Positions 27,780 through 56,857 of a stretch of DNA of 64,000 nt are shown one piece after another. A program made the position numbers and the translations under genes. The notes under the pieces are model-generated. The model was not told the DNA's origin and ran no database searches. It saw only the letters and a program-made list of their open reading frames with translations. The stretch covers positions 401,875-465,874 of the forward strand of contig NZ_JACHWB010000001.1 in assembly GCF_014191055.1 (NCBI RefSeq), in the 5' to 3' direction. This DNA is from Microvirga lupini (GTDB lineage Bacteria; Pseudomonadota; Alphaproteobacteria; Rhizobiales; Beijerinckiaceae). Every line of letters begins with the position of its first letter. Position 1 is the first letter of the stretch.

Positions 27780-27799
27780 TCCGCGCTGATAGGGACCAG

Positions 27800-27826
27800 A
27801 CGGGAGGCCGATGATCAGCCTCCCGT
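27800..27826 (+). terminator. intercistronic hairpin after the binding-protein gene
   Basis: A perfect 9-bp stem ACGGGAGGC/GCCTCCCGT with a nine-base loop lies 20 bases after the stop and is followed by only three T residues. It is likely a partial terminator or mRNA-stabilising hairpin that raises binding-protein levels above those of the permeases. Confidence 0.6.
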
Positions 27827-27856
27827 TTGTCAATCTGACGAACGCGGGACTGCATC

Positions 27857-28729
27857 ATGGCCGAGTTCCTCCAGTTTCTCATCTCCGGTCTGACGGTTGG
27901 CGCCGTCTACGCGCTCGTCGCACTGGGCTTCACGCTGATCTACAACGCATCCGGCGTGGTGAACTTCGCCCAGGGTGAGTTCGTCATGCTCGGCGGCATG
28001 GTGACGGTGTTCGCATCGGCCGCCGGTGTTCCGCTGCCGCTGGCTGCCGTCGTTGCCATCGTGGTCGCCGTCGTGATCGGCCTTCTCCTTCATCGCCTTG
28101 CCATCGAGCCTGCCCGCGGCGCATCGGCCGTGACGCTCATCATCATTACGATCGGCGCGTCGATCCTGCTCCGCGGCCTTGCCGCGATCATCTTCGACAA
28201 GCAGTTTCACAAGCTCCCCGGTTTCTCGGGCGAGACGCCCATCGACATTCTCGGCGCGGCCGTCCAGCCTCAGAGCTTCTGGGTTCTCGGCGGAACGGCG
28301 GTCGTCGTGGTGGCGCTCTACGTCTTCCTCGAGCACACGCTTCTCGGGAAGGCCGTTCTGGCAACGGCTGCAAACCGGTTGGCGGCGCGCTTGGTCGGCA
28401 TCAACACGACCACGATCATGGCGCTGGCCTTCGGAGGTTCCGCCGCCATCGGGGCGATTGCCGGTATTCTCGTGACGCCCATTACACTCACGAACTACGA
28501 TGTCGGCACGCTGCTGGCCCTGAAAGGCTTCGCCGCCGCCATGCTGGGCGGCATGGGTAATCCGTTGGGCGCTGTTGTGGGCGGACTTCTGCTGGGTCTG
28601 CTGGAAGCCTTCGGTGCGGGCTACCTGAGTTCCACCTATAAGGACGCCTTCGCGTTCCTGGTCATCCTCATCGTCCTGTTCGCAGCCCCACAGGGTCTGT
28701 TCGGACGCCGAGCCGTCGAGAGGGTGTGA
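27857..28729 (+). CDS. LivH-type ABC transporter permease
   Basis: The 290-residue polytopic membrane protein starts MAEFLQFLISGLTVGAVYAL and has the inner-membrane fold of LivH with GFTLIYNASGVVNFAQGEFVMLGG and the coupling region FKGFAAAMLGGMGNPLGAVVGGLLLG. It forms the translocation pore with the next gene product. Its TGA overlaps the region of the following start. Confidence 0.93.
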   Translation: MAEFLQFLISGLTVGAVYALVALGFTLIYNASGVVNFAQGEFVMLGGMVTVFASAAGVPLPLAAVVAIVVAVVIGLLLHRLAIEPARGASAVTLIIITIGASILLRGLAAIIFDKQFHKLPGFSGETPIDILGAAVQPQSFWVLGGTAVVVVALYVFLEHTLLGKAVLATAANRLAARLVGINTTTIMALAFGGSAAIGAIAGILVTPITLTNYDVGTLLALKGFAAAMLGGMGNPLGAVVGGLLLGLLEAFGAGYLSSTYKDAFAFLVILIVLFAAPQGLFGRRAVERV

Positions 28730-28731
28730 GG

Positions 28732-29679
28732 ATGGGTGCTCTCACGAACCAGCGCTTCCTGATTCTCGCCGTGCTGGCGGTGGTGATCGCCGTCCTGCCG
28801 TTCGTCTTTCCCTCAAGTTATTACTTCCGCGTCGCGTCGCTCGTGTGGGTGTCGGCGCTCGCAGCCATAGGCCTCAACATCCTCATGGGGCAGGCCGGCC
28901 AAGTCAGTCTCGGCCATGCGGCGTTCTTCGGAATCGGCGCCTATGCAGTAGCAATCGGACCGGCCCACCTCGGCATCCCGCCTTGGGCGGCGCTTCTCAT
29001 CGGAGCTGCGCTCTCCGCCGTGCTCGCCTATCTTGTAGGGCGCCCGATCCTGCGACTGAAGGGCCATTATCTCGCCATTGCCACTCTTGGCCTCGGCGTG
29101 CTCGTTGCGCTGGTGATTTCGACGGAGAGCGGCTGGACCGGTGGGCCGGATGGTATGCCGGTGGAGCGGCTGATCCTGTTCGGCTGGCGCGTCAGCGGGT
29201 CGTATACATGGTATTGGGTGACAGGCGCGCTCCTGCTCGTCGGAACCTGGATCGCGCTCAACCTCGACGAGACACCGACGGGGCGGGCCTTCCGCGCGCT
29301 GCATGACAGCGAGGTGGCTGCACAGGTGGTGGGTGTCGACGTTGCCCGCTTCAAGCTGCAGGCCTTCGTGATCGCCGCCGTGTATGCCTCAATTGCCGGC
29401 TCGGCTCTGGCCTTCATGAACGGCTTTATCAATCCGGATCAGGCCGGCTTCCTGCACTCCGTGGAGCTCGTCACCATTGTGGTCCTCGGGGGGCTTGGAT
29501 CAATCGTCGGCAGCATCGTGGGTGCCGCGGTTCTAGTCACGCTGCCGCAGGCGCTGACGATCTTCCATGAATACGAGCATCTTATGCTCGGCCTCATCAT
29601 CATCGTGTCCATGATCTTCATGCGCAACGGCATCGTGCCGAGCGTCTCGGGCCTGTTCCTCAGGAGAGCACGGTCATGA
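28732..29679 (+). CDS. LivM-type ABC transporter permease
   Basis: The polytopic protein has LivM features: IGLNILMGQAGQVSLGHAAFFGIGAY and the coupling segment GGLGSIVGSIVGAAVLVTLP. The ATG at 28732 (MGALTNQRFLIL) is chosen, with GAGG just upstream; a GTG two codons earlier at 28726 is an equal alternative. The gene is translationally linked to LivH before it and overlaps LivG by four bases (ATGA) at its end. Confidence 0.92.
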   Translation: MGALTNQRFLILAVLAVVIAVLPFVFPSSYYFRVASLVWVSALAAIGLNILMGQAGQVSLGHAAFFGIGAYAVAIGPAHLGIPPWAALLIGAALSAVLAYLVGRPILRLKGHYLAIATLGLGVLVALVISTESGWTGGPDGMPVERLILFGWRVSGSYTWYWVTGALLLVGTWIALNLDETPTGRAFRALHDSEVAAQVVGVDVARFKLQAFVIAAVYASIAGSALAFMNGFINPDQAGFLHSVELVTIVVLGGLGSIVGSIVGAAVLVTLPQALTIFHEYEHLMLGLIIIVSMIFMRNGIVPSVSGLFLRRARS

Positions 29680-30458
29680 CGATCCTCAAAGCAACGGATA
29701 TCGGCATCTCGTTCGGGGGCGTAAAGGCCGTCGATGGAGTGAGCTTTTCGGTGAGCCCCGGCCAGATCCTCTCGATCATTGGACCGAACGGGGCCGGAAA
29801 GACCACACTCTTCAACATCGTATCCGGGATCTATGCCGCGAACCGCGGCACGATCCACCTAGCCGATGAGGACGTCACAGGACTTGCCCCTCACAAACTG
29901 GCAGCGCGTGGGCTGTCCCGCACCTTCCAGAACCTGCAGATCTTCCAACGCATGACGGCATGCGAAAACGTCATGGTCGGGCGTCATCTCCGGGAGAAGT
30001 GCAGCCTCCTGCCGGCGCTGTTCAGAACTCCATCCGTGACGCGCCAGAATCGGGAGACGCGCGCTGCAGCGCTCGATCTCCTTGCTTATGTGGGCCTGAA
30101 GGATGTGGCGGATGTGCCGGCCGGCTCGCTTCCCTACGGGGCCTGCAAGCGTCTCGAGATCGCGCGATCCCTCGCGGCCGAGCCGCGCGTGCTGCTCCTC
30201 GATGAACCGGCTGCCGGCTGCAATGCGGTCGAGACCGAGGAGATCGACCATCTAATCCGGCAGGTCGCCGACAGAGGTGTCGCGGTGGTGCTCGTCGAGC
30301 ACGACATGAAGCTCGTCATGAAGATTTCCGACAGGATCCTGGTTCTGGAGCGAGGCAGGCCGCTGGCCGAGGGAACGCCGCGGGAGGTGCGCGATGATCC
30401 AAAGGTCCTTGAGGCTTATCTGGGACAGCACGGCGCCCGGGAGGCTGCCCGTGCTTGA
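29676..30458 (+). CDS. LivG-type ABC transporter ATPase with altered signature motif
   Basis: The 260-residue ATPase has Walker A GPNGAGKTT, Walker B VLLLDEPAAG and switch His in LVEHDMK. The signature loop reads LPYGACKRLEIAR, where LivG proteins normally have LSYGQQRRLEIAR, so the Gln that follows the Gly is Ala. The rest of the domain, including the LivG-type FQNLQIFQRMT, is normal. It energises uptake with the LivF-type partner that overlaps its 3' end. Confidence 0.92.
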   Translation: MTILKATDIGISFGGVKAVDGVSFSVSPGQILSIIGPNGAGKTTLFNIVSGIYAANRGTIHLADEDVTGLAPHKLAARGLSRTFQNLQIFQRMTACENVMVGRHLREKCSLLPALFRTPSVTRQNRETRAAALDLLAYVGLKDVADVPAGSLPYGACKRLEIARSLAAEPRVLLLDEPAAGCNAVETEEIDHLIRQVADRGVAVVLVEHDMKLVMKISDRILVLERGRPLAEGTPREVRDDPKVLEAYLGQHGAREAARA

Positions 30459-31155
30459 GGTGGAGAACCTGCGCAGCGCATACGGCCGCATCGAGGTCCT
30501 GAAAGGCGTCAGCCTCGAGGTGCGTGCCGGCGAAGTCGTGGCGCTTGTCGGTGCGAACGGTGCGGGAAAGACCACGCTGCTGCGCGCACTCTCGGGCGTG
30601 CAGCCGATGACCGGCGGCGAGATCCGCTTCAAGGGACAGCGCATCGACCGCCTGCCACCTCACCAGCGCGTGGAGCTCGGCATCACCCAGTCGCCCGAAG
30701 GTCGGCAGGTGTTCGGACCTCTTACTGTTGAAGACAATCTGAGGCTCGGGGCCTATCGCCGACGTGACAAGGACATCGAGCAGGATCGCGATCGGGTTTT
30801 TGCGATGTTCCCGATCCTGGCCGAAAAGCGCCATCTTCTCGCCGGCGGATTGTCGGGCGGTCAGCAGCAGATGCTGGCCATCGGCCGAGCCCTGATGGGG
30901 CGTCCTAAGCTCCTGCTGCTGGATGAACCGTCGCTTGGATTGTCGCCGCTCCTGGTCGATCAGATCCTCGATGCCATCGTGTCTCTGAGGAAAGACGGCA
31001 TCACAGTGCTACTGGTGGAGCAGAATGCCAGTGCGGCACTGGCGATCGCGGATCGGGGCTACGTGCTTGAGACGGGAAAGGTGGCCTATAGCGGAACCGG
31101 CTCTTCCTTGCTCTCCGATCCTCAGGTTAAGGCGGCTTATCTTGGAATCGAATAA
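30451..31155 (+). CDS. LivF-type ABC transporter ATPase
   Basis: The 234-residue ATPase begins at a GTG (30451) inside the last eight bases of the LivG-type gene, with GGGAGG upstream. This gives the usual LivF start VLEVENLRSAYGRIEVLKGV. Walker A is GANGAGKTTLLRALSG, the signature LSGGQQQMLAIGRAL and Walker B LLLLDEPSLGLSPL. It completes the five-gene importer (binding protein, two permeases, two ATPases). Confidence 0.93.
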   Translation: MLEVENLRSAYGRIEVLKGVSLEVRAGEVVALVGANGAGKTTLLRALSGVQPMTGGEIRFKGQRIDRLPPHQRVELGITQSPEGRQVFGPLTVEDNLRLGAYRRRDKDIEQDRDRVFAMFPILAEKRHLLAGGLSGGQQQMLAIGRALMGRPKLLLLDEPSLGLSPLLVDQILDAIVSLRKDGITVLLVEQNASAALAIADRGYVLETGKVAYSGTGSSLLSDPQVKAAYLGIE

Positions 31156-43039: not shown

Positions 43040-44299
<1,260 letters not shown>

Positions 44300-44302
44300 T
44301 CC

Positions 44303-45316
44303 ATGGCACGCATGACGATGATCGAAGCCATCCGGGACGCGATGGATGTGATGATGGCGCGCGATGAGCGTGTCGTGGTCTTCGGCGAGGATGTCGGCTA
44401 CTTCGGCGGCGTCTTCCGCTGCACGGCAGGCCTCCAGCAGAAATACGGTAAGACCCGGTGTTTCGATGCTCCCATCAATGAGGCCGGCATCGTCGGAGCG
44501 GCGATTGGCATGGCGGCTTACGGGCTTCATCCCTGTATCGAGATCCAGTTCGCCGATTACATGTACCCGGCCTATGACCAGATCGTATCCGAGGCAGCCC
44601 GCCTGCGGTATCGCTCGAACAGCGAGTTCACCTGTCCGCTCGTCGTCCGCATGCCAACCGGCGGCGGCATCTTCGGTGGGCAGACTCACAGTCAGAGTCC
44701 CGAAGCCCTGTTCACCCATGTATCGGGATTGAAAACCGTCGTGCCGTCAAATCCTCACGATGCCAAAGGCCTCCTCATTGCGGCCATCGAGGATCCGGAT
44801 CCGGTTATCTTCCTGGAACCGAAGCGGCTCTATAATGGACCTTTCGATGGCCATCACGATCGCCCGATCACGCCATGGTCGAAGCATGACCTCGGCGAGG
44901 TGCCAAGCGGCCATTTCACGTTGCCACTCGGAAAGGCATCGATCGTGCGGGAGGGAGCGGCCGTGACCGTGCTGGCCTACGGGACAATGGTCTATGTGGC
45001 TCAGGCGGCTGCGGCCGAAACGGGCGTCGATGCGGAGATCATTGATCTGCGCACCTTGCTTCCCCTCGATATGGAGACCATCGTTGCGTCCGTCAGGAAA
45101 ACGGGACGTTGCGTGATCGTCCATGAGGCGACGCTCACGTCCGGGTTCGGGGCTGAGCTGGCGGCCCTTGTCCAAGAGGCCTGCTTCTTCCAACTCGAGG
45201 CGCCGATAGCGCGTGTGACGGGATGGGACACGCCATATCCTCATGCACAGGAATGGGACTATTTCCCAGGACCTGCACGGGTCGGACGTGCGCTTGTCGA
45301 AACGCTGGAGGCCTGA
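44303..45316 (+). CDS. branched-chain 2-oxoacid dehydrogenase E1 beta subunit
   Basis: The 337-residue partner of E1-alpha has the conserved N-terminus MTMIEAIRDAMDVMMARDER, then VVVFGEDVGYFGGVFRCTAG, the central RMPTGGGIFGGQTHSQSPEA (tetramer and thiamine contacts) and the C-terminal VHEATLTSGFGAELAALVQE. It starts three bases after E1-alpha ends and is followed by the E2 gene one base after its stop. Confidence 0.95.
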   Translation: MARMTMIEAIRDAMDVMMARDERVVVFGEDVGYFGGVFRCTAGLQQKYGKTRCFDAPINEAGIVGAAIGMAAYGLHPCIEIQFADYMYPAYDQIVSEAARLRYRSNSEFTCPLVVRMPTGGGIFGGQTHSQSPEALFTHVSGLKTVVPSNPHDAKGLLIAAIEDPDPVIFLEPKRLYNGPFDGHHDRPITPWSKHDLGEVPSGHFTLPLGKASIVREGAAVTVLAYGTMVYVAQAAAAETGVDAEIIDLRTLLPLDMETIVASVRKTGRCVIVHEATLTSGFGAELAALVQEACFFQLEAPIARVTGWDTPYPHAQEWDYFPGPARVGRALVETLEA

Positions 45317-45317
45317 C

Positions 45318-46646
45318 ATGGGTGAGCACCTGATCAAGATGCCCGATGTCGGCGAGGGAATCGCCGAGGCCGAACTGGTTGAGTGGCACGTCAAGGTCGG
45401 CGACCTCGTGCGCGAGGATGCTCTGCTCGCAGCCGTGATGACTGACAAGGCAACAGTTGAAATTCCTTCTCCCGTCGATGGGGAAGTTCTGTGGCTCGGC
45501 GCGGACATTGGGGACGTGGTCGCTATCGGATCCCCCTTGATCCGCCTGAAGGTGGGAGACGAAGAGGGGGCTGCTTCCAGTCGCGATGCCACCGATAAGG
45601 CACCTGAACCGCCAGCCCGGCCCAAGGAGATCGAGGCACAGGCTGATGGCGCGGTCAGAACCTCTGACGCCATCGTCGAGAAGCAGGCGAGGGAAGCTCC
45701 AAAGCCTCAGCCTGTCGAGGTTCCGAAGACTCCACCTGTGAGAACGCACCGCCCATCAGTCCCACGCACAGAGGGTGACAAGCCGGTTGCCTCCCCGGCC
45801 GTTCGGCTGCGGGCACGGGAAGCCGGGATCGACCTGAGGCAGGTTCCGGGCACAGGCCCTGCCGGTCGGATCACACATGAGGATCTGGACGCGTTCTTCA
45901 CCCATGGCCCGCAAGTCGTGCGGGCTCCGGGATTGGTTCAGGATACCTCCGTTCAGCACGTGAAGGTGATCGGACTGCGCCGCAAGATTGCGGAGAAGAT
46001 GGCGTTAGCAACATCGCGCATTCCGCACATCACCTATGTCGAAGAGGTCGATGTGACCGCTCTCGAAGACCTGCGGGCGTCACTTAATGCGGCCAAGCGA
46101 TCCGACAGGCCGAAGCTGACTCTCCTGCCGTTTCTGATGCGCGCAATGGTCAAGGCTATTGCCGAGCAGCCGAACCTGAACGCGATCTATGATGACGAAG
46201 CAGGAATCATTCACCAGTACGGCGGCGTTCATATCGGCATCGCCACGCAAACAGGTACGGGCCTGATGGTGCCGGTCGTCAGGCATGCGGAGGCGCGGAA
46301 CCTCTGGGATTGTGCTACGGAGATGGCCCGCTTGGCCGAGGCCGCCAAAGCCGGTCTAGCCACCCGCGAGGAGCTGAGCGGCTCGACGATCACGATCACG
46401 TCGCTCGGAGCGATGGGCGGCATCGTCACGACGCCGGTGATCAATCATCCGGAGGTCGCCATTATTGGCGTCAACAAGATCATGGTGCGGCCGGTCTGGG
46501 ATGGGTCGACCTTCATTCCCCGCAAGATGATGAACCTGTCCTCCAGTTTCGATCACCGGATCATCGACGGCTGGGATGCGGCGGTCTTCGTGCAGCGCAT
46601 CAAGACGCTGCTGGAGACGCCTGCGATGATCTTCGTGGAGGCTTGA
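45318..46646 (+). CDS. dihydrolipoyl acyltransferase E2 of the branched-chain complex
   Basis: The 442-residue protein has one lipoyl domain ([20 protein letters not shown] with the lipoylated Lys in [12 protein letters not shown]), a Pro/Ala-rich linker, a peripheral-subunit-binding domain ([20 protein letters not shown]) and the catalytic acyltransferase domain ending in [17 protein letters not shown], where His and Asp are the active-site residues. The start at 45318 replaces an earlier frame at 45243 that is inside E1-beta. It carries acyl groups between E1 and CoA. Confidence 0.95.
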
Positions 46647-46651
46647 CGTCA

Positions 46652-48049
46652 ATGAAGGATATTTCCTGCAAGCTCCTTGTTATCGGAGCCGGGCCGGGCG
46701 GCTATGTCTGTGCCATTCGCGCCGGACAGCTTGGCATCGACACGGTGATCGTCGAAGAAAGAAAGCCGGGTGGGACCTGCCTCAACGTAGGTTGCATTCC
46801 GTCCAAGGCGCTCATTCACGCGGCTGAGGAATACGACCGCATCGTTCATCTGGCATCGGGGAAGAACCCGCTCGGAATCACGACGACAAAGCCCGAGCTC
46901 GACCTATCCCAGACCATCGCCTGGAAAGACACCATCGTCGGCCGCCTGAACAGTGGCGTTTCGGGTCTCCTCAAGAAGTCCAAGGTCAAGATGGTCCAGG
47001 GCCGGGCGCGGTTTCGCGATGGCAAGACGGTCGAGGTGGAAACAGAAACCGGTCAGCAGATCATCCGTGCCGAGAATGTGGTGATCGCAACCGGGTCGGC
47101 TCCGGTCGAGCTCCCGAGTCTGCCGTTCGGCGAAACCGTGATCTCGTCAACTGAAGCGCTTGCGCTGACATCGGTTCCGGAGAAACTGGTGGTCGTCGGC
47201 GGTGGCTATATCGGTCTCGAGCTTGGAACAGCTTTTGCCAAGATGGGCGCGAAGGTGACTGTCGTCGAGGCGCAGGCACGCATCCTGCCGCAATACGATG
47301 CGGAACTCACCCGTCCTGTGGCCAAGAAGCTGCAGGCCTTGGGCATCGACGTCATGACACGCGCAAAGGCCAGGGGGCTGGCCAAAGCCGGCGGGACCCT
47401 GCTGGTAGAAGCCGAGAGCGGATCTGAAGTACAGCTTGCCGCCGACAAGATCCTTGTCACGGTGGGCCGGAGGCCGGTCACGCAAGGATGGGGAATGGAA
47501 GAACTCGTCCTCGATATGGATGGTCCCTTCATTCGGATCGACGAGAGATGCCAGACGTCGATGCGAGGCATCTATGCCATCGGTGATGTGACGGGCGAGC
47601 CGATGCTGGCCCATCGCGCCATGGCGCAGGGTGAGATGGTGGCCGAGATTGTTGCCGGTCATAAACGGGTGTGGGACAAGCGAGCCATTCCGGCAGTGTG
47701 CTTCACCGATCCGGAGATCGTGGCCGTCGGCCTGACGCCTGATGAGGCTCAGAAGGCCGGCAGTGAGGTTCGCGTCGGTCATTTTCCGTTTTCGGCCAAT
47801 GGACGCGCCATGACGAAGCTTGGGGAGGAAGGCTTCGTTCGCGTCTTAGCCCGGGCGGACAATCACCTGATCCTTGGCATTCAAGCCGTCGGACAGGGCG
47901 TGTCTGAGCTCTCCGCTGCATTCGGGCTTGCCATCGAGATGGGCGCGCGTCTTGAGGATATCGCCGGCACCATCCACGCGCATCCTACGCAGGGAGAAGC
48001 TTTCCAGGAGAGTGCCCTGAAATCCTTGGGTCGCGAACTTCATATCTGA
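46652..48049 (+). CDS. lpdA: dihydrolipoyl dehydrogenase E3
   Basis: The 465-residue flavoprotein has [17 protein letters not shown] (FAD), the redox disulfide in [17 protein letters not shown], the NAD Rossmann motif [16 protein letters not shown] and the C-terminal catalytic His in [12 protein letters not shown]. It reoxidises the lipoyl groups of E2. The ATG at 46652 follows the E2 stop by five bases. The frame reads open into E2 but the protein begins here. Confidence 0.95.
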
Positions 48050-48082: not shown

Positions 48083-49126
48083 TCAGGGAGGGGCAACCCT
48101 GTAAGCTTCGACAACGCCTTTGCCCTTGATAGGAACAGGCCCCAGAGGAGCGGCGTCAACACGGGTCTTGACCCGCTCCCAAGCCGAGGCGCTGAGATTG
48201 ATACCGCTCTGTCTGCCATATCCAGCGAGGCGTGCCGCGACATTCACCGTATCGCCCCAGATGTCGAAGCTGAATTTCTGCCGGCCCACGACGCCAGCAA
48301 CGACCGGGCCGATGTGGATGCCGACGCGGACATCCCAAGGCAGGGGAAGGTCACGGGCCGAGGCGATGGTCGATCTGGCGCATTCAATGCTTGCCATCAC
48401 CGGATCCGGGTTGGGCAGGAGAAGACCAGCCGTGGCAAGAAATCCATCGCCGATCGTTTTGATTTTCTCCAGGCCGTGCTGTGATGCGACGTCCTCGAAG
48501 GTCGAGGCGTAAACATGAAGATTTGCAACGATCTCCTCTGGTGCAAGAAGATCGCAATAGGCCGTGAACCCGACGATATCGGCGAAGAACACAACGACGT
48601 CTTCATAGCGGCGAGGCGTCACTGTATGAAACTGCTCAAGCTCGCCCACAGCCTGTGACGGCAGAATGGCATGAAGGAGCGCTTCAGCCCGGCGACGCTG
48701 ATGATCGATCTCGGCGAGGTAACTGAGCTCCTGGTCATGCAGTCTCTTCTTCTCGAGGCAGGCTCTTACGCGTGCTCTCAAGAGCGCCGGATTGAACGGT
48801 TTCGGGAGATAGTCCTCGGCTCCGAGTTCGATGCAGCGGACAACACTCTCAAATTCCGACAAAGCGGAGATCATCAGAACTGGGATGTCGCGTGTAGCCG
48901 GGTCCGTCTTAAGATGCTTCAGGACTTCGTAGCCGTTGATCTCAGGCATCATGATATCGAGAAGAATGAGATCAAAGCGATCGTGGGCAATCCGATCAAT
49001 GGCTTCCCGGCCATTTTCGGCCGTCACCAGATCCGTCCATCCCTCGCGCTGCAGCCTCCGTGTCAGTGTGTACCGGTTGTCCTCGTTGTCATCCACGACA
49101 AGGATGCGGACCCCAGCATCGGTCAT
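48083..49126 (-). CDS. receiver-linked class III adenylate/guanylate cyclase
   Basis: The 347-residue protein has an N-terminal receiver (VVDDNEDNRYTL, acceptor Asp in LILLDIMMP, Lys in YLPKPF; residues about 8-122), a short helical linker (HQRRRAEALLHAILP) and a class III cyclase domain. The cyclase has metal-binding Asp in VVFFADIVGF and in TIGDGF, and Asn/Arg in DTVNVAARLAG. The Lys and Asp of EKIKTIGD and SFDIWGD favour ATP, hence cAMP production, rather than GTP. Its ATG overlaps the receiver gene before it by four bases, so it is the last output of the kinase operon. Confidence 0.9.
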   Translation of the reverse strand: MTDAGVRILVVDDNEDNRYTLTRRLQREGWTDLVTAENGREAIDRIAHDRFDLILLDIMMPEINGYEVLKHLKTDPATRDIPVLMISALSEFESVVRCIELGAEDYLPKPFNPALLRARVRACLEKKRLHDQELSYLAEIDHQRRRAEALLHAILPSQAVGELEQFHTVTPRRYEDVVVFFADIVGFTAYCDLLAPEEIVANLHVYASTFEDVASQHGLEKIKTIGDGFLATAGLLLPNPDPVMASIECARSTIASARDLPLPWDVRVGIHIGPVVAGVVGRQKFSFDIWGDTVNVAARLAGYGRQSGINLSASAWERVKTRVDAAPLGPVPIKGKGVVEAYRVAPP

Positions 49127-49500
49127 GGAAGGCTCCGCCCGCGAATAAGAGAGTCGATTTTCTCAAGCAATCTTTCGAAGGTGATTGGCTTGGCATCATA
49201 GTCGTCACATCCAGCAGCGAGCGCTTTTTCCCGGTCTCCCGGCATTGTGTGTGCGGACAGGGCAAGAATGGGAATGTCCCTGGTGTCGGGTGACTGCTTG
49301 AGGTGACGCGCTGCTGTCCAGCCATCGAGAGCCGGCAGGCCGAGATCCATGAGGATCAGGTCTGGCTTCTCCTTACGGGCGGTTTCGATGCCCTGCACGC
49401 CATCCGAGGCGACGCTGACCTGGAAACCGTGTCTCGTCAGACGCTGGGTCAGCATGTAGACATTGTCCTCGTTATCCTCGACATAGAGAATCTTGATCAT
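49123..49500 (-). CDS. DivK-like single-domain response regulator
   Basis: The 125-residue receiver ([20 protein letters not shown]) has Asp in [14 protein letters not shown], Ser in LALSAHT and Lys in DYDAKPI, and closely resembles DivK/Spo0F-type carriers. Its start overlaps the kinase stop by four bases (ATGA at 49497-49500) and its stop overlaps the cyclase start by four. It probably shuttles phosphate between the hybrid kinase and the cyclase or other targets. The longer frame from 49539 lies inside the kinase. Confidence 0.9.
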
Positions 49501-52500
49501 GCTTGTTCCTGGTGCTCTGTTCGGCCGAGCCGCAGGCAATCGGCGATGACGTCCCGCAATGTGGCGAGAACCTCATCCCGATCACCCAATCTCTTGCGCA
49601 GGATTCTTCGGATTCCCCCGCTCAGACGACGTTGAGCCTCCTCATCAACTTCGGCTGCTGTCAGCACGATGAGAGGAAGGTGCCGCATTTCCTCCTTCCG
49701 GTGAATCTCATCGACGAATTCGAAGCCGTCCATTTCCGGCATCATGAGGTCGAGCAGGATGATGTCAGGCTTGACGAGCGGAAGCCGGTCCAAGGCAACT
49801 CTCCCGTTCTCGGCCTCGGCCACCTCCCAACCATCCTCCCGCAAGATCCGGGTGAGCCAGCCCCGGGTGTGAGGGTCATCCTCCACGACGAGAACGCGAG
49901 AGCTCGCGTGATGGGGGCGGCAGGCGGCAAGGGCCCTCAGAAGGCACTCGCGATTAATCGGCTTAGTCAGATAGGCGGCAGCCCCAAGAGCATATGCCCT
50001 GTTTTCCTCGTCTACGATGGTAACCATGATAACGGGTATGTCCTGGAGCTCACGCTCACGCTTCAAGTGCTGAAGGGTGCTCCAGCCATCGAGGCCCGGC
50101 ATCAAGACATCCAATGTGATAATGGCCGGCCGGATCTCCCGGGCGATCTCGATTCCCTGCCGGCCATTCTCCGCCGTCACGACTTCGAAACCTTCACGCA
50201 ACAGAATCTGACGCAGGATCTCCCGCGATGTCGCGTCGTCATCAATGATCAGGGCACGTAGGCCTCGCCCGACAGATTGCGGGACGACAGAAGATTTGCC
50301 CCTGCTCATTCGCACCCTGGGAGTACCCGCGACACCTCCGGCCGGCAGCGAAATGGTGAAGGTACTTCCAGCCCCTACGGCACTTTGTACGGTGATGTCC
50401 CCTCCCATAAGACGGCAAAGCCGGCGGCTGATGGCGAGTCCGAGTCCGGTTCCTCCAAACTTTCGTGTTGTTGTACTGTCGGCCTGACTGAACTCCTGGA
50501 AGAGCTTGTCGCGCTGCTCCGGTGTCATGCCGATGCCCGTATCGTGAACAGCAATCGTTATAGTGTCTCCTCCGCGATCCACGATCCGAGAGGCCGTCAT
50601 CGTCACGGTGCCACCTTTGGTGAACTTGCAGGCATTGCTCAGCAGATTGAGCAGAACCTGTCGTAGGCGCACGGGGTCGGTCTGCATCCTGCCGATGTCG
50701 GATGCGATCTCGACCTTGAGATGGTTGTTGTTCCGTCTTGCGAGAGGCTCAGCCGTCATGGAGACTTGTCCGATCAGGTCACGGAGATCGATCTCTTCCG
50801 GATGAAGTTCCAGCTTGCCTGCCTCGATCTTGGCAAGATCCAGGATCTCATTGATCAGGGCCAGGAGATGCGTACCGGCATGGCGGATCCTGTCGAGCGG
50901 TTCCACCAGCGGCTTATCCCCGGTCTCCTCAGCTTCCTCCTTGAGCATCTCGGTAATGCCGATGATCGCATTCAGCGGCGTTCTCAGCTCATGACTCATG
51001 TTCGTGAGGAACTGGCTCTTCGCCCGCGTCGCCGCCATAGCCTCATCCCGGGCAAGTTCCAGCTGTGCGGCATGATGCTTGACTTCGGTGATGTCGGTGT
51101 ATACCGCAACAGTTCCACCCCCGGCAATCCTCCGTTCGCAGACCTGGACCCAGCGATCGCCATCGCGATGCTGGATCTCGGCTGCGACCGGATTGCGGTG
51201 CCGGGCCAGCCGCTCGGCCACCCAGGTGTCGACCCGCCCTTTCGCTTCCAGGATGAGGCCGCGCTCCGCCGCGCGTCGGATCACCGTCTCGAAGGATGTT
51301 CCGGATTCCATGGGAACATCCGTTCCCGGGTAAAGGAGCTCCTCATACCGGCTGTTGCAAAGGATGAGGCGATCATTGGCGTCATATAGGGCAAACCCTT
51401 CATTGATGCTCTCGATCGCGTCGATCAGCCGCTGTCGGGCATCGGCGATTTCACGCAGGTTCTTTTCCTCAACCTCCACCGCTGTGTCACGGAAAACAGC
51501 AAGAGCTTTCGCCATCTGTCCGATCTCATCGCTGCCATCCCTGGGCAGGGGAGCGCGTAGGTTGCCTCCCGCGATTGCCAGCATGCTGTTGCTCAAGCCT
51601 TGCAGCCGCGCGACGAGATTGCGATCGACATAGAGCCAGACGATAAGCAGAGAGCTCAAAAGGCTGAGCGACACGACGCTCAGCAGAATATTCCGCCCGA
51701 TCCGCTGCGCCATCATCGCCTCTCCGCTGGCCGAACGAATATCGCCGCGGGCGGTTGCGATTAGGCCATCGACTGCTTTTGTCAGCTGTGCGGAAAGACC
51801 TGCATTCTCCGCCAGAAGGCGCTCGGCATCCCCCAGGAGAATAAGTTCTGTCCTCCTCGCGGATAAGATGCTGTCCTGCCCTTCAACCAATCTGGCAAAG
51901 TCCGATATCCGAAGATCGAAACGGGACCGCAGGCGCTGATCCGCCAGCTCGGACGCGATCTGGCGCAATGCTGACAGAGAGCGGTTGAGCGGAAAGCTCA
52001 TTACGGCAATATCGGCAGGTTTTTCGGCGAGGGACGCCTTGAGCAAGCCGTCACTGATCGAGGCGAATTCGAGCTGTGCCTTCTGCATGAGGAAATGCTC
52101 GGCGATTTCCTGTACGATCACCGAGGGAGGTTGTGGGAAGCCGGCAGTCGTCTGTTCGCCACGGTCGATGCGGCGGGATGCTGCGAACTTGGCATCCAGA
52201 ACCACAAGGGCCGGGGCGATCAAGCGTTGCGCTGCAACCGATGCATTTGAAAGGCGCTGGACCAGCACATCCTTTTGCCCCGCCACAGCGAGCCGTCCTG
52301 CCACAAGGCCGGCGAGCGCCGTGAGGTTCCGCCTCAATCCCGCAACAGCGGGTTCCATGGCGGCGACCGCTGTAGGGTCAACCTCACTCCGAACCTGGGC
52401 AAGAAGATCCTCAAGACGCTCAACTTCGGCTGTAATGGCGGCGGATATTTCCCGGTACTGTGCTTGTGACCGGGCCGTGAGAAGCGTCGGTGCGGCCGCA

Positions 52501-52694
52501 ACAATGCGTTCTGCTTGCCGCGACAGGTCAAGAGCAGCAAGTGCAGAGGGTACGCGCTGCTCCGTGATCCGCTCAATTACATGGGCCATTTGGCGGAAGG
52601 CATATGTCCCTGTCGCTGCAGCGAGCACGGCAAAGGCACTGATGCCGAGAAAAGCGAGGAGCAGGCGCCAGCGGACGCTCAGGTAGAAAGGCAT
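49497..52694 (-). CDS. membrane hybrid histidine kinase (HAMP-PAS-HisKA-HATPase-REC-REC)
   Basis: The 1065-residue kinase has TM1 ([21 protein letters not shown]), a helical periplasmic domain of about 310 residues, TM2 ([21 protein letters not shown]), HAMP, a PAS domain ([19 protein letters not shown]), HisKA with the phospho-His in [13 protein letters not shown], HATPase ([20 protein letters not shown]) and two receivers. The first receiver has Asp in ITLDVLMP and Lys in LTKPIN. The second has Asp in LLDLMMP but ILRKRL where Lys-Pro is usual, so it may not switch normally. A binding protein is encoded just upstream, which suggests ligand sensing through that protein. Confidence 0.93.
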
Positions 52695-52718
52695 TCCAGC
52701 AGGGGCAGCGCCCCTTCC

Positions 52719-53822
52719 TCATTCCAGGGGCACATATCGGCCACTCCGCCAGATGAACCATTCGAAGCCGGGCTGTCGCACATCGCCCTTGGCATCGAAG
52801 CTGACCCGCCCAAGTATGGTGTCGAACTCGTTCGAGCGTAGAGCGCCCATCACGGCTTGCGGCTCAATCGAACCTGCTTTGGTGACTGCCTGAGCCCAGG
52901 CCTGAACGGCACCGTAGCTATAGAGTGTGTAGCCCTCAGGTTCGAAACCCGTTTGCCGAAAGCGCTCCACGAGGGAGGCGACACCGGGATTCCGACGAGG
53001 GTCGCGAAAGGAGGTGAAGATCGTTCCCTCGCCGGCCTCACCCGTGACCTGCACGAAGGCTTCGCTTGCAATGCTGTCGCCAGACACCAGTTGCAGATTA
53101 TAGCCCTGCTCGCGGGCATTGCGGATCAGTATTGCTGCCTCCCGGTAGTATCCGCCGAAATAGGCAATCTGAATTCCGGCCGCCTGCAGCTTTGCGATGA
53201 GGGGGGAATAGTCGTTCAGACCCGTTTCAATCTCGTCGAGGAGCGTCTCTGCGCCACCATGCTGGTGGAGGTGACGCTGAGTCTCCTCGGTAATTCCTTT
53301 GCCATAGATCGAGCCGTCATTGAGGATGGCGATTTTTGCGTTCCGTCCTCGTGCTGCGAGATAGGCACCTGCTATCGCGCCTTGCTGGTCATCCCTCCCA
53401 CATATGCGAAAAACGTTCGGGCGGCCTTCTTCCGTCAATCGTGGATTGGTTGATGCTGGAGTCATCTGGATGATGCCGGCCCTTTCATAAACGCCGGCTG
53501 CTGGAATGGAGGCGCCCGAGCACTGGTGCCCGACGACAAAGACGACTTTCTCGGCCGCAAGTTTGTGAGCCGCTGCAATCGCCTGGCCGCTATCGCACGC
53601 ATCGTCGACGGAGATGAGCCTCAATGGCTGGCCGAGCACGCCGCCAGCAGAATTGATGTCAGCAATGGCCATCTCCACGCCCTGCTGCTGCTGCTCGCCC
53701 TGATATGCGTTAGGGCCAGTGAGAGCTCCTGCCATACCAATGAGGATCTCCGCACTAGCCGGAGCAGCCCCTGCTACAGCAAAGATGACGGCTGCAGCGA
53801 AACGTGACAATATTCGTTCCAT
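52719..53822 (-). CDS. periplasmic type I binding protein coupled to the hybrid kinase
   Basis: The 367-residue protein begins at 53822 with GGGAGG upstream and a signal peptide (RFAAAVIFAVAGAAPASA). The mature protein is a LivJ-class type I binding domain (EILIGMAGALTGPNAYQGEQ, VVGHQCSGASIPAAGVYE, FFGGYYREAAILIRNA-like segments). No permease or ATPase gene is near, which is unusual for this class. The only downstream partner in the operon is a membrane hybrid kinase, 24 bases away, so a sensory role like TorT/TorS or LuxP/LuxQ is likely (inference). A 6-bp hairpin AGGGGC/GCCCCT separates the two genes. Confidence 0.88.
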   Translation of the reverse strand: MERILSRFAAAVIFAVAGAAPASAEILIGMAGALTGPNAYQGEQQQQGVEMAIADINSAGGVLGQPLRLISVDDACDSGQAIAAAHKLAAEKVVFVVGHQCSGASIPAAGVYERAGIIQMTPASTNPRLTEEGRPNVFRICGRDDQQGAIAGAYLAARGRNAKIAILNDGSIYGKGITEETQRHLHQHGGAETLLDEIETGLNDYSPLIAKLQAAGIQIAYFGGYYREAAILIRNAREQGYNLQLVSGDSIASEAFVQVTGEAGEGTIFTSFRDPRRNPGVASLVERFRQTGFEPEGYTLYSYGAVQAWAQAVTKAGSIEPQAVMGALRSNEFDTILGRVSFDAKGDVRQPGFEWFIWRSGRYVPLE

Positions 53823-54149
53823 GGCGAGCCTCCCGCCACATGGCTGCATCAGCATCTTCTAAGCATTGGCCTGCTGCAAACCAAAGCTAACTTTACACCG
53901 CAAGTGATCAGCTTGCGCTCCAGATTGCATCCTAATCGATACGATAACTATGGTCGATTCATGAATGGTCCCGGTCGTGGGGCTGTCAAGACTATAAGGG
54001 AATACGCCACAAGGAGTGCAGCTAAGATCCATCAGGATCGATAATGAGAGACTAGATCGCACCATCCCATAGGACTTTGGCACAGTCCCCCCTCTGAGGC
54101 TGCAATGTTGACATTGTTACAGTCAGTGTTGATGGATGGAGGGAAGTCA
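53823..54149. other. low-GC gap upstream of the sensory operon
   Basis: No gene, tRNA or repeat is seen. The base composition is clearly lower in GC than its neighbours, fitting a promoter region for the binding protein plus degraded sequence leading into the pseudogene. Confidence 0.45.
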
Positions 54150-54593: not shown

Positions 54594-56522
54594 TCAAGGA
54601 ACCTTGGCGCTGAATCCGAGGCCTGATTGTGCAACAGGCGTTTCGTTTGTCTGCATCGGGCATAATTTCGCGGCCTGGAGAAGTCCATACCCGTAGGTTT
54701 TGTCTCGGCCCGGCTTGCCCAAATCCATCGTGTTGCTCTCAAGAGTAGCCTGGAGCCCGTCCGGATTCAGGTTTGTGCCCGAAGCCTGCAGGACTGCAGC
54801 GGCGGCGGAAATGAACGGTACGGCATAAGATGTGCCGCTCTTCGTCGTGCCGCCTCCGCCCGGCGCTGCAACCCACAGATCCACACCGGGTGCCGCAAGA
54901 TCAATGTACTCACCCTGGGTTGCGCGGCGGTAGACATCGCGCTTCCTGTCGACGGCTGTTACGGCAATCACTCCTGGATAGGCAGCAGGGTAGGAGGGGT
55001 CGGCGCCTGCGCCATTGTTTCCAGCGGCGGCGATGATGATCATGCCCTTCTCCTGAGCCGATGCAATGGCTTGCTTAAGCACCTCGTTGGGAGGACCGGA
55101 CAGGCTCATGTTCACGACACGGACATTTCTCTCCGCCAAAGCTTCCAGAGCCATGACCAGTGTCGTCACATCTGTCCGATCCGCCGTTCCACCATCACGA
55201 TAAAAAGCATCTATTGCCAAAAGGCGCGCTTCAGGCAGGAGGCCTGGAGCGCTGCTGTCGCCCCGCCCGATGAGGAGAGCCGCCACAGCCGTCCCGTGAT
55301 CGCGCTGTGACGGATTTCCGCGAAGCTGTAGTTCGGAAACGATCTCAATTGATTGGCCTCGTAGGGCTTCGTGCTCGCGGTCAATCCCCGTATCGATAAG
55401 GCCGATTGTTGGAGCAGGGCCGCATTGTTTGGTCATCGGCAGATTCCAACCCACGAGGGAGACCGCCTCGCAGCCGTTCCCTGTGCAGCCTGGGCCCTCG
55501 TCAGTGTAATAGAAATGGTCAAGGTCAGTGACAGCTCTCGCGTCAGCCATGCGAACGGCGCGCTGTGCCTGAGCAATCGACATGCCGCGGGGAAGGATAA
55601 GCCTCACGACGCTCGCGAGGGCGCCTTTGGTCTGCTTCTCAGCTTGGAATCCTCGCGTCCTCAGCCGCGCGAGGCTCTCCGACGTCAGACCGGCAGCCAC
55701 GATTGAGCGCGATGCCTGTTTGGGTTTTGGCAAGGTTTGATCCGCAGATGGGCGCATCGTCTGGGTTTGTGCCTCGGGTGAACGCCTGACGGATCTCGCA
55801 GAAGCAGCCGCGGCCCTGCTGGGATTGAGGCCAGTTTTGCCTGGCCGGGCCTCCTTCCGCGAGGAAGCTGGCTTGGATTTTGCGGATCGAGCAGAGCTCT
55901 TCTTCGAGGAGCTCCTGGGTGTCACGGCTCTCTCGATTACCTTGACAGGAGCTGTCACAACGGGGCGGAGACTATTTGTGATCACCCCTAGAACGTTTGG
56001 CAACCCTCCAGGCACTGTGGAACGCGAAGCGCGGCTGCTCTCGGAAGCATTCCCTCGGCCTGAGGAATTCCCTCGGGCGGATGAATTGCCTTTGCCCGAC
56101 GACCCTCCGGCGTTCGAGGATCCTCCATGCCCTGAGGATCTACCTTGGCCGCCTCCCTCATTGCCATTGCCGGAGGAGGTGCTTCCTGAAGAATGCCCAG
56201 CTCCTCCGGCATTCCCGTTTCCGCTGCCGTTGTTGCCTGAGGCCCCCTGACTTCCTGCGTTCCCACTGTTGCCGCGATCGCCTGCATTGCCGCTATTGCC
56301 GGAGTTTCCTGGAGGCCCGCCGTCGCCCCTTCCAGCTCCATTGCCGCTTCCGTTGTTGCCACCGTTGCCATTGCCGCCATCATTGCCGGACTTGGCCATG
56401 GCCGGAGCCTCGGTGAGAGCTAACCCGACACCTTCTCCGACCGCAAACTGGATCTTGGTCGGACAGGCGATGGCAACACAGGATGCCAGTACCAGCAGGG
56501 AGCGTCGTTTTGATGTCATCAT
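54594..56522 (-). CDS. subtilisin-like (S8) serine protease with Gly/Asn/Ser-rich linker
   Basis: The ATG at 56522 (MMTSKRRSLLVLASCVAIAC) gives a 642-residue exported protein; a start at 56621 adds an unlikely tail. Residues about 44-170 are low-complexity Gly/Asn/Ser repeats (GNSGNAG units). A basic Ser/Arg/Lys-rich segment follows, then an inhibitor-like propeptide (LARLRTRGFQAEKQ, LRLPRGMS-like). The S8 catalytic domain runs from about 370 with Asp377 (GLIDTGID), His409 (RDHGTAVA), Asn502 (AAAGNNG) and Ser565 (SGTSYAVP). All triad residues are present, so it should be active outside the cytoplasm. Confidence 0.9.
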   Translation of the reverse strand: MMTSKRRSLLVLASCVAIACPTKIQFAVGEGVGLALTEAPAMAKSGNDGGNGNGGNNGSGNGAGRGDGGPPGNSGNSGNAGDRGNSGNAGSQGASGNNGSGNGNAGGAGHSSGSTSSGNGNEGGGQGRSSGHGGSSNAGGSSGKGNSSARGNSSGRGNASESSRASRSTVPGGLPNVLGVITNSLRPVVTAPVKVIERAVTPRSSSKKSSARSAKSKPASSRKEARPGKTGLNPSRAAAASARSVRRSPEAQTQTMRPSADQTLPKPKQASRSIVAAGLTSESLARLRTRGFQAEKQTKGALASVVRLILPRGMSIAQAQRAVRMADARAVTDLDHFYYTDEGPGCTGNGCEAVSLVGWNLPMTKQCGPAPTIGLIDTGIDREHEALRGQSIEIVSELQLRGNPSQRDHGTAVAALLIGRGDSSAPGLLPEARLLAIDAFYRDGGTADRTDVTTLVMALEALAERNVRVVNMSLSGPPNEVLKQAIASAQEKGMIIIAAAGNNGAGADPSYPAAYPGVIAVTAVDRKRDVYRRATQGEYIDLAAPGVDLWVAAPGGGGTTKSGTSYAVPFISAAAAVLQASGTNLNPDGLQATLESNTMDLGKPGRDKTYGYGLLQAAKLCPMQTNETPVAQSGLGFSAKVP

Positions 56523-56857
56523 CCCGGCTCGTCGATGGGCCGCGAAAGGCCCAGATTCCCGCAGTGGGCCCTGAACGTCCACTGAACGTTGAATAACGGT
56601 CAAAGCACCAGCTTGTTTCAAAATTGCTCAAAGTCTCTGGGTGGCCAGGAATTTTCAGTAACTGCTGGCCATAGAATGCGGTCTACACGCTGATGCAAGC
56701 TTAGGGAGGGTATGAGCGATCAAACGAAGGTGGTTTAACTCTTCTGCTTTGCTCAAAAATTCTTATGTTATTTGATGAATATTAGAGAAAAAACATGTTC
56801 ATCCTGCGTTCATTATATATCGCATGCTGGCCGACAGGATGGATCCCATGTCTGCTT

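Follow-up and report, generated by a model that had tools for sequence, protein, structure and literature searches.

A transporter-less LivJ-class binding protein, a TorS-like hybrid kinase and a receiver-cyclase share a conserved Microvirga operon, a candidate ligand-to-cAMP relay

What is a secreted binding protein of the LivJ class doing in front of a hybrid histidine kinase and a receiver-cyclase, with no transporter beside it? The locus lies in a 64,000-nucleotide stretch of Microvirga lupini DNA (the window) and contains four intact minus-strand open reading frames. Their order and positions are those given in an earlier note on this DNA, and the ORF list and Pfam agree on them:

52719..53822, minus strand: secreted LivJ-class binding protein (Peripla_BP_6; Pfam 8.7e-52)
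49497..52694, minus strand: hybrid histidine kinase, 1065 aa (Pfam: TorS-like sensor, HAMP, PAS_7, HisKA, HATPase_c, two Response_reg)
49123..49500, minus strand: stand-alone receiver (Asp52), 125 aa from ATG (Pfam Response_reg), four-base overlaps on both sides
48083..49126, minus strand: receiver-adenylate cyclase, 347 aa (Pfam Response_reg 1.7e-29, Guanylate_cyc 5.8e-37)

The binding-protein and kinase genes are separated by 24 nt in the window and in 13 of the 13 other genus loci, and the ATGA overlaps reported at 49497-49500 and 49123-49126 are both at those bases. Among the genus loci that bear the stand-alone receiver (window counted), kinase and receiver overlap by 4 bases in 10/10 and receiver and cyclase in 9/10, the overlap in L110 being one base. 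As the gap and overlaps are retained across the genus loci, the arrangement is more than chance. Upstream of the binding-protein gene a promoter-like element can be read from the sequence:

53929..53957, minus strand: promoter-like element TCGACC-N17-TAGGAT

An ATCGACC block is invariant in the upstream alignment of 14 loci and the block at the -10 place is partly conserved, and the element is a putative promoter. In the 330 nt that precede the operon, simple patterns for a CRP-like or Clr-like site matched in 0/14 loci.

Of 48 genus genomes, 14 encode an ortholog of the receiver-cyclase (at least 82% identity), and these 14 also encode one of the binding protein (at least 76% identity); in none of the 48 does either occur without the other. 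Gene order is the same in the window and in all 13 fetched genus loci. The conserved synteny that the earlier note had proposed to look for is present in 14/14 genus genomes with both genes, save for the stand-alone receiver in four of them, and the loss of linkage in close relatives that it had named as the opposite outcome was not seen in the 48. The operon is also found in Rhizobium sullae, Rhizobium sp. T136 and Pararhizobium sp. A13, with a frameshifted kinase in A13.

The same note had observed that no permease accompanies the binding protein, and this holds across the genus. Searching by tblastn with four Liv transport proteins of the M. lupini genome, we found no permease beside the gene in the stretches read from 13/13 other genus loci, five of which gave only a distant ATPase match (23-27% identity), and no co-inherited permease/ATPase pair was seen. 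The search is able to detect a permease, since it found the complete Liv operon at 27857-31143 of the same window. Another Liv operon lies elsewhere in the genome, and its binding protein is 46% identical.

The binding-protein ORF spans 52719-53855, and the ATG at 53822 is preferred as its start codon because a signal-peptide-like stretch opens there, in the orthologs too. The NCBIfam model PRK15404 scored 314.8 bits on the protein, below its cut-off of 477, and the closest solved structures were 3ipc (E 6.5e-98) and 3ip5 (E 9.6e-98). The protein is like LivJ/LBP and the amino-acid binding protein that we take to be Atu2422 (3ip5, 1usg, 1z15) in sequence family, in positions S79, T102, Y150 and D226, which match 3ip5 and presumably hold the amino-acid head group, and in the cysteines at positions 53 and 78, which 1usg shares. 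It differs from them in having no adjoining transporter and in side-chain pocket positions 18 and 77, both Gln in 14/14 orthologs. As the head-group residues are retained and these two pocket positions are Gln, the ligand may be a polar amino acid.

Pfam bears out the description of the second gene as a HAMP-PAS hybrid kinase with two receivers, with His568 in HisKA and Asp862 and Asp982 in the fused receivers. Its periplasmic sensor, placed by eye between two membrane helices, runs from about residue 30 to 335. The Pfam TorS_sensor_domain matches at 36.3 bits (cut-off 27), covering just 107 of its 275 positions in the window's kinase, and the NCBIfam TorS equivalog cut-off is unmet (405.7 of 676.5 bits). 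TorS kinases have a C-terminal HPt after the receiver; where TorS has it, this kinase has a second Response_reg, and Pfam found no HPt in any of the four operon proteins (E 0.001). The sensor part was modelled with AlphaFold:

51615..52694, minus strand: kinase residues 1-360, modelled sensor part

The prediction came from a two-sequence alignment and its five models had mean pLDDT values from 56 to 81; the model compared with known structures had a mean of 81.4. Foldseek aligned it with 3o1h_A at E 1.4e-6 (TMt 0.81) and VIA-align 2 with 3o1i_B at Z 19.8 (265 aligned, rmsd 2.8). The six best Foldseek rows and the five best VIA-align rows (Z 16.4-19.8) were all TorS, and the next family reached 14.9. 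On the predicted fold, and also by Pfam, the periplasmic region of the kinase is TorS-like, in keeping with the TorT/TorS-type sensing proposed before. The sensor's sequence profile reached TorS among PDB chains only at E 0.34 (3i9w), below an alpha-catenin row at 0.17, and the R. sullae kinase gave no Pfam TorS match at E 0.001.

In the receiver-cyclase the receiver residues D13, D57, S87 and K109 (acidic pair, phospho-acceptor Asp, Ser/Thr and Lys) are invariant. So are the cyclase residues D183, K223, D227, D288, N295 and R299 in 14 aligned sequences, four of them genus orthologs; we take Asp183 and Asp227 to bind metal, Lys223 and Asp288 to recognise adenine, and Asn295 and Arg299 to act in the transition state. 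These site residues, together with the tested catalytic residues of the kinase, are retained in 17/17 operon loci, with only core residues counted for the Pararhizobium sp. A13 kinase, which is in two frames with its N-terminal part out of frame. Judged by sequence, the receiver-cyclase has a complete class III adenylate cyclase site. It need not set the cell's cAMP pool, because 14 further cyclase-domain matches were found in the genome. The 19 cNMP-binding matches above cut-off in the same genome speak for a cAMP relay.

The observed gene content, co-inheritance and catalytic residues, with the modelled TorS-like fold, suggest that the operon is a ligand-to-cAMP relay, in which a TorT/TorS-type input drives a CheY-AC-type output, and we consider this likely. 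The transporter-less binding protein would capture a small periplasmic molecule and dock on the kinase's TorS-like sensor, and docking would alter the autophosphorylation of His568. The phosphoryl group would then pass directly from His568 to the receiver-cyclase, at Asp57, and the dimerised cyclase domain of that protein would make cAMP to be read by CRP-type proteins. The two kinase receivers and the stand-alone receiver may be side acceptors, serving as a sink or for tuning, with no obligatory carrier chain. An adjacent binding-protein gene is not proof of docking, because in the parts of PMC11113362 that deal with such pairs in P. aeruginosa, PA4985 was not seen to interact with the sensor domain of AruS, nor PA0602 or AgtB with that of AgtS.

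Phosphate could instead travel by an obligatory phosphorelay, from His568 to the kinase receivers, on to a carrier (either the stand-alone receiver or an HPt from another part of the genome) and only then to the receiver-cyclase. The two fused receivers would suit such a chain, as would a coupled receiver gene placed between those for kinase and cyclase; in 19 of 32 family and order loci, too, a kinase and a receiver directly precede the receiver-cyclase. However, receiver-to-receiver phosphate transfer normally needs an HPt, which the operon lacks by Pfam, and the related kinase of L117, which adjoins a receiver and a receiver-cyclase, shows no fused receiver by Pfam. The stand-alone receiver gene, moreover, was lost by in-frame deletion in two sister pairs (4/14 genus genomes), at loci that retain the kinase, the cyclase, translational coupling and the tested residues. 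As two independent deletions leave kinase and cyclase in place, the receiver is probably not an obligatory carrier, and we rejected it as an essential one, the role that the earlier note's title implies; a phosphorelay of this kind is unlikely. The receiver had been called DivK-like, and among the best 25 of 89 NCBIfam matches nothing pointed to DivK beyond its being a single-domain receiver: the best rows were PleD, BarA and PhoB, all below cut-off, and no DivK was among the 25. Receiver counts here come from reading the loci; the ORF-based partner table overlooks the receiver in some of them (e.g. L024 and L111).

Two further readings concern the input. One takes the system to sense branched-chain amino or oxo acids specifically and to control the operon with which it converges, and the genes on either side bear on it:

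43067..48049, plus strand: bkd operon (branched-chain 2-oxoacid dehydrogenase E1a, E1b, E2, lpd), convergent neighbour, outside the system
54594..56621, minus strand: subtilase (Peptidase_S8, Pfam), other flank of the operon, outside the system

The bkd names are presumed from the sequence, the Pfam check covering part of lpd only. A LivJ-class binding protein would fit this idea, and bkd is the convergent neighbour in the window and in 13/13 other genus loci, at a distance of about 2.4 kb in L113 and L115. But 40 of 48 genus genomes have bkdA1, and the module is missing from 26 of these, so that 14/14 has a chance of 0.048 and a single insertion event suffices; the subtilase directly follows lpd in 4 of the 10 module-free genus loci read; and no bkd match was found near the four Rhizobiaceae loci tested. 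We therefore rejected the adjacency as functional evidence, one insertion site explaining it better, and with Gln at both pocket positions control of bkd seems quite improbable. The other reading, which we regard as very unlikely, is that the operon's binding protein is an orphan LivJ of the usual kind, feeding Liv permeases encoded elsewhere, with the kinase sensing something else directly and the neighbourhood being coincidental. The two Liv operons and the retained head-group residues would allow this. Against it stand the exact co-inheritance with the receiver-cyclase, the constant gap to the kinase, the predicted fold of the sensor, the related pairs that adjoin cyclase fusions and chemoreceptors, and the co-divergence of binding protein and sensor. 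With the near-duplicates L218, L249, L251 and L254 dropped beforehand, the correlation was 0.959 over 29 pairs and 0.91 over a reduced set of 17, and 0/2000 permutations were as high for each set; this co-divergence partly reflects shared ancestry.

The ligand-to-cAMP reading draws in a wider set of relatives. In S. meliloti 1021 the sensor and a class III cyclase domain form one protein, with a closely related binding protein beside it, and the gene lies near 307.5 kb of pSymA; the same sensor-cyclase fusion occurs in S. meliloti M162, Sinorhizobium sp. CCBAU 05631, S. americanum, Ensifer canadensis and the three further genomes L217-L219; these are profile matches, confirmed for L217 by Pfam too. 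Related binding-protein/sensor pairs adjoin chemoreceptors as well, and the core of kinase, receiver and receiver-cyclase also accompanies other secreted partners. The partner survey was made without family loci L028-L034, which have no same-strand kinase adjoining the receiver-cyclase, and of the 80 named loci the survey covered the first 24 and, among the rest, those with an SBP, Tll0287-like or TorS profile match. Against the relay reading, a Peripla_BP gene adjoins only 7 of the 30 TorS-like loci examined in the taxonomic order, out of 52 matches; of the other 23, L245 offers just 0.3 kb of upstream sequence. The plasmid survey covered 9 of 57 records.

How much of this is new? The operon is like the TMAO-sensing TorT/TorS/TorR system of E. 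coli and Vibrio in that a binding-protein gene lies beside a TorS-like helical-sensor kinase, with HAMP and a hybrid kinase. It differs in its Peripla_BP_6/LivJ-class binding protein, its second receiver with no HPt match, and its output, which is a cyclase and not TorR, a DNA-binding output. The binding-protein gene adjoins the kinase without a transporter, and the protein would dock on the sensor as a TorT-type co-receptor does. The output joins a receiver to a class III adenylate cyclase domain like the CheY-AC response regulators, named as such in the part of Galperin 2005 (PMC1183210) that treats them, but here co-inheritance ties it to a binding protein and TorS-like kinase as input. Extracytoplasmic signals are also turned into cAMP in Hyphomicrobiales by the CHASE2 cyclases, CyaD1, CyaD2 and CyaK in S. 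meliloti, where CHASE2 acts with NsrA according to the relevant passages of PMC13001267; here a TorS-type sensor and adjacent binding protein would take the place of CHASE2 with NsrA. Binding proteins are co-receptors in SBP-activated receptors too, and the lists of these in the relevant parts of PMC9602780 and PMC11113362 give chemoreceptors, sensor kinases, c-di-GMP enzymes and Ser/Thr kinases, and no adenylate cyclase. Our literature search gave no binding-protein-controlled cyclase or receiver-cyclase among the matches listed, in the portions of the sources covered, which is weak evidence of absence. The parts are thus known, and TorT/TorS-type input with CheY-AC-type output is a new arrangement of them.

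In rhizobia and their relatives no signal is known for many of the class III cyclases. On balance we lean towards the view that Hyphomicrobiales have a modular class, so far unrecognised, of secreted binding proteins that serve cAMP synthesis as co-receptors. In such a class the output core of kinase, receiver and receiver-cyclase would be combined with secreted partners of at least four kinds (LivJ-class, Peripla_BP_5, SBP_bac_1 and CxxCH Tll0287-like), and the input pair of Peripla_BP and TorS-type sensor with kinases, with chemoreceptors or directly with cyclases. Secondary root infection in S. meliloti is limited by cAMP, according to the passages of PMC13001267 on this process, and strain 1021 itself bears the fused sensor-cyclase form. 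The relatives that have lost the stand-alone receiver are a natural deletion experiment on the wiring from kinase to cyclase, and the ligand-binding half of this candidate cAMP receptor would be a small soluble protein, amenable to purification and screening.

The four minus-strand genes described in the earlier note are all present and uninterrupted, preceded by a promoter-like element:

53929-53957, minus strand: promoter-like element upstream of the binding-protein gene, with an ATCGACC block invariant in 14/14 genus loci
52719-53822, minus strand: binding protein
49497-52694, minus strand: kinase
49123-49500, minus strand: stand-alone receiver
48083-49126, minus strand: receiver-cyclase

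Pfam assigns the binding protein to Peripla_BP_6, and the kinase carries TorS_sensor_domain, HAMP, PAS_7, HisKA, HATPase_c and two receivers. The third gene is a lone receiver domain and the fourth a receiver joined to Guanylate_cyc. The ATG at 53822, the start chosen in the earlier note, is preferred for the binding protein; a signal-peptide-like stretch begins there and orthologs show the same. The binding-protein and kinase genes are 24 nt apart, and both reported ATGA overlaps, kinase/receiver and receiver/receiver-cyclase, were seen.

Receiver-cyclase matches (E 1e-50) occur in 20 of the 48 genus genomes, and 14 of these are orthologs with 82-100% identity. A LivJ-type match of some sort is present in all 48 genomes, and a close binding-protein ortholog (76-100%) in exactly the same 14 as the receiver-cyclase ortholog; in the other 34, binding-protein matches reach at most 48% identity among the matches listed. 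Conserved synteny was borne out, with the order binding protein, kinase, receiver-cyclase in 13/13 genus loci besides the window and the 24-nt gap unchanged in all 13. The remark that no permease accompanies the binding protein also held: tblastn with the branched-chain amino-acid transporter (Liv) proteins of this genome found none at the orthologous genus loci (0/13), and in five of them (L111-L115) an ATPase of 23-27% identity was the sole match. With the same queries a complete Liv operon is recovered at another place in the window, which shows that a permease could have been detected. That LivJHMGF-type ABC operon (26613-31155, plus strand) has its own, more distant binding protein, with a profile score of 156 versus 571 for the one studied here.

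The module has the branched-chain 2-oxoacid dehydrogenase (bkd) operon as its convergent neighbour, both in the window and in 13/13 other genus loci (in L113 and L115 at a distance of about 2.4 kb). Of the 48 genus genomes 40 have bkdA1, and 26 of these 40 lack the module. Ten bkd loci lacking the module were read, and in four of them the first match beyond lpd, at some 25-190 nt, is the subtilase, which borders the module in the window. This arrangement marks an empty site, which implies that the module arrived or left as one block. No bkd match was seen near four Rhizobiaceae loci (L137, L247, L249, L250). We do not accept bkd as a demonstrated target of the module.

The sensor (kinase residues 1-360) was modelled with AlphaFold from an alignment of two sequences, giving an all-helical prediction with mean pLDDT 81.4. 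Foldseek against the PDB returned TorS in all of its best six rows, from five entries, three of them TorS-TorT complexes (3o1h_A: E 1.4e-6, TMt 0.81). VIA-align 2 also ranked TorS first (Z 19.8, rmsd 2.8, 265 aligned), followed by helical chemoreceptor domains such as McpZ (Z 14.9); helical bundles generally score high, so the margin to this next family counts more than the absolute value. The predicted fold and Pfam thus favour the TorT/TorS-type sensing proposed earlier. The kinase is nevertheless not a TorS ortholog, as it scores under the NCBIfam TorS cut-off, has no HPt match by Pfam and, unlike TorS with TorT, is partnered by a LivJ-class binding protein.

The identity matrices of 29 binding-protein/sensor pairs correlate with r 0.959, and those of a reduced set of 17 pairs with r 0.91, with 0/2000 permutations as high in either case. 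This co-divergence supports the pairing, but in part reflects shared descent and is not decisive. On the opposing side, PMC11113362 reports two P. aeruginosa kinases for which no binding to binding proteins encoded nearby was detected. The genome also contains 14 further cyclase-domain matches, and its cNMP-binding matches above the cut-off number 19, so this one cyclase need not set the cAMP pool.

The stand-alone receiver, cast earlier as the carrier, is probably not an obligatory one. It is absent from four genus loci (L105, L106, L107, L109), where in-frame mini-ORFs of 30, 40, 30 and 42 residues, respectively, have taken its place. These have no internal stops, are built from the ends of the former receiver gene, and still overlap the kinase (ATGA or GTGA) and the cyclase (ATGA) by four bases. 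The kinase tree pairs L105 with L107 (support 0.99) and L106 with L109 (0.97) as sisters; the two pairs carry different remnants, so we count two losses. All 17 loci compared (three from Rhizobiaceae and the 14 of the genus, the four deletion loci among them) keep the phosphoacceptor His and the tested receiver residues of the kinase, as well as the tested receiver and cyclase residues of the receiver-cyclase. The stand-alone receiver is dispensable, with kinase, cyclase and coupling retained without it. The kinase would then probably pass its phosphoryl group straight to Asp57 in the receiver of the cyclase, and the remaining receivers would act as sinks or tuners.

The closest solved structures to the binding protein are 3ipc and 3ip5, which we take to be Atu2422, an Agrobacterium protein that binds GABA and amino acids. 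S79, A100, T102, D121, Y150 and D226 (3ipc/3ip5 numbering) are retained in the window and 13/13 genus orthologs. All 14 have Gln at positions 18 and 77, where 12 close relatives from Rhizobiaceae-type loci have Ile/Tyr or Thr/Tyr. From the roles of these positions we infer that the ligand resembles an amino acid and bears a polar side chain, and the genus and Rhizobiaceae-type groups probably have different ligands.

The same output also occurs with other inputs. A scan of 25 more receiver-cyclase loci (L022-L027, L054-L072) found a same-strand kinase within 6.5 kb upstream in 20. The gene before the kinase is Tll0287-like in 13 of the 20 (L023, L054, L057-L063, L066-L068, L072), Peripla_BP in three (L024, L026, L027) and SBP_bac_1 by Pfam in one (L022); in three (L064, L070, L071) no secreted-partner gene was seen there. 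A CxxCH motif, presumably a c-type heme site, occurs in each of the 13 Tll0287-like proteins, making a heme-based input to cAMP possible. Within the genus, L116 and L117 have an SBP_bac_1 partner and L118 a Peripla_BP with a TorS sensor, while no partner gene was seen at L119-L122. At L022, L116 and L117 the SBP_bac_1 protein has, by eye, a twin-arginine-like N-terminus and is followed by kinase, receiver and receiver-cyclase; the L117 kinase has no fused receiver by Pfam. Seven of seven family loci (L028-L034) have no kinase in the corresponding place. Outside the order, a scan with profile annotation of the best 80 of 562 confirmed loci found the kinase, receiver, receiver-cyclase row in, for example, Microcoleus (L144) and SAR116 (L145, L146).

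The same input is likewise found on other outputs. Searched against 397 genomes of the order, the sensor alignment found 52 matches, spread over 50 genomes, and 30 loci were read. A Peripla_BP gene adjoins the sensor gene in seven; by profile 23 have no such neighbour (among them L245, with only 0.3 kb upstream), which counts against a tight rule. In L217, L218, L219 and L224 sensor and cyclase domain form one fused protein, and a binding protein accompanies 4/4 of these fusions, that of L224 being distant (23% identical to the window's). Pfam reads L217 and L224 as TorS_sensor_domain, HAMP, with or without PAS_7, and Guanylate_cyc. L241 has a Peripla_BP gene beside a kinase. L225 and L239 join the sensor to an MCP signalling domain (Pfam); a LivJ-class binding-protein gene lies directly upstream of each chemoreceptor, and of the two only L225 was matched by the Pfam model for TorS.

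The genome scan also found the complete operon in Rhizobium sullae (L137). Of the 57 records in a plasmid collection that match the sensor, nine were read. Three carry the four-gene operon (R. sullae WSM1592, Rhizobium sp. T136, Pararhizobium sp. A13), five a binding protein beside a TorS-cyclase fusion (S. meliloti 1021 pSymA, S. meliloti M162, Sinorhizobium sp. CCBAU 05631, S. americanum, Ensifer canadensis) and one, Bradyrhizobium sp. CB82, a binding protein divergent from a TorS-type kinase. The Pararhizobium kinase (L250, 7001-10149) matches in two frames, a frameshift or sequencing error. The M162 pair is annotated as branched-chain amino acid ABC transporter substrate-binding protein and adenylate/guanylate cyclase domain-containing protein. 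Six aligned fused cyclases retain the window's Asp183, Lys223, Asp227, Asn295 and Arg299, with Thr at Asp288, which places them in a different cyclase subclass, presumably IIIb. These arrangements suggest that the same kind of input has been joined to cyclases more than once.

CheY-AC regulators were named long since (PMC1183210), and kinases, chemoreceptors, c-di-GMP enzymes and Ser/Thr kinases activated by binding proteins have been reviewed (PMC9602780, PMC11113362). The earlier note knew of no TorT/TorS-type system ending in a receiver-cyclase, and none emerged among the matches listed. No binding protein controlling cAMP synthesis was found in the open-licence literature among those matches, nor in the parts consulted of these three papers. 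The parts are thus already known, and the predicted link from a binding protein to cAMP synthesis would be a new variant.
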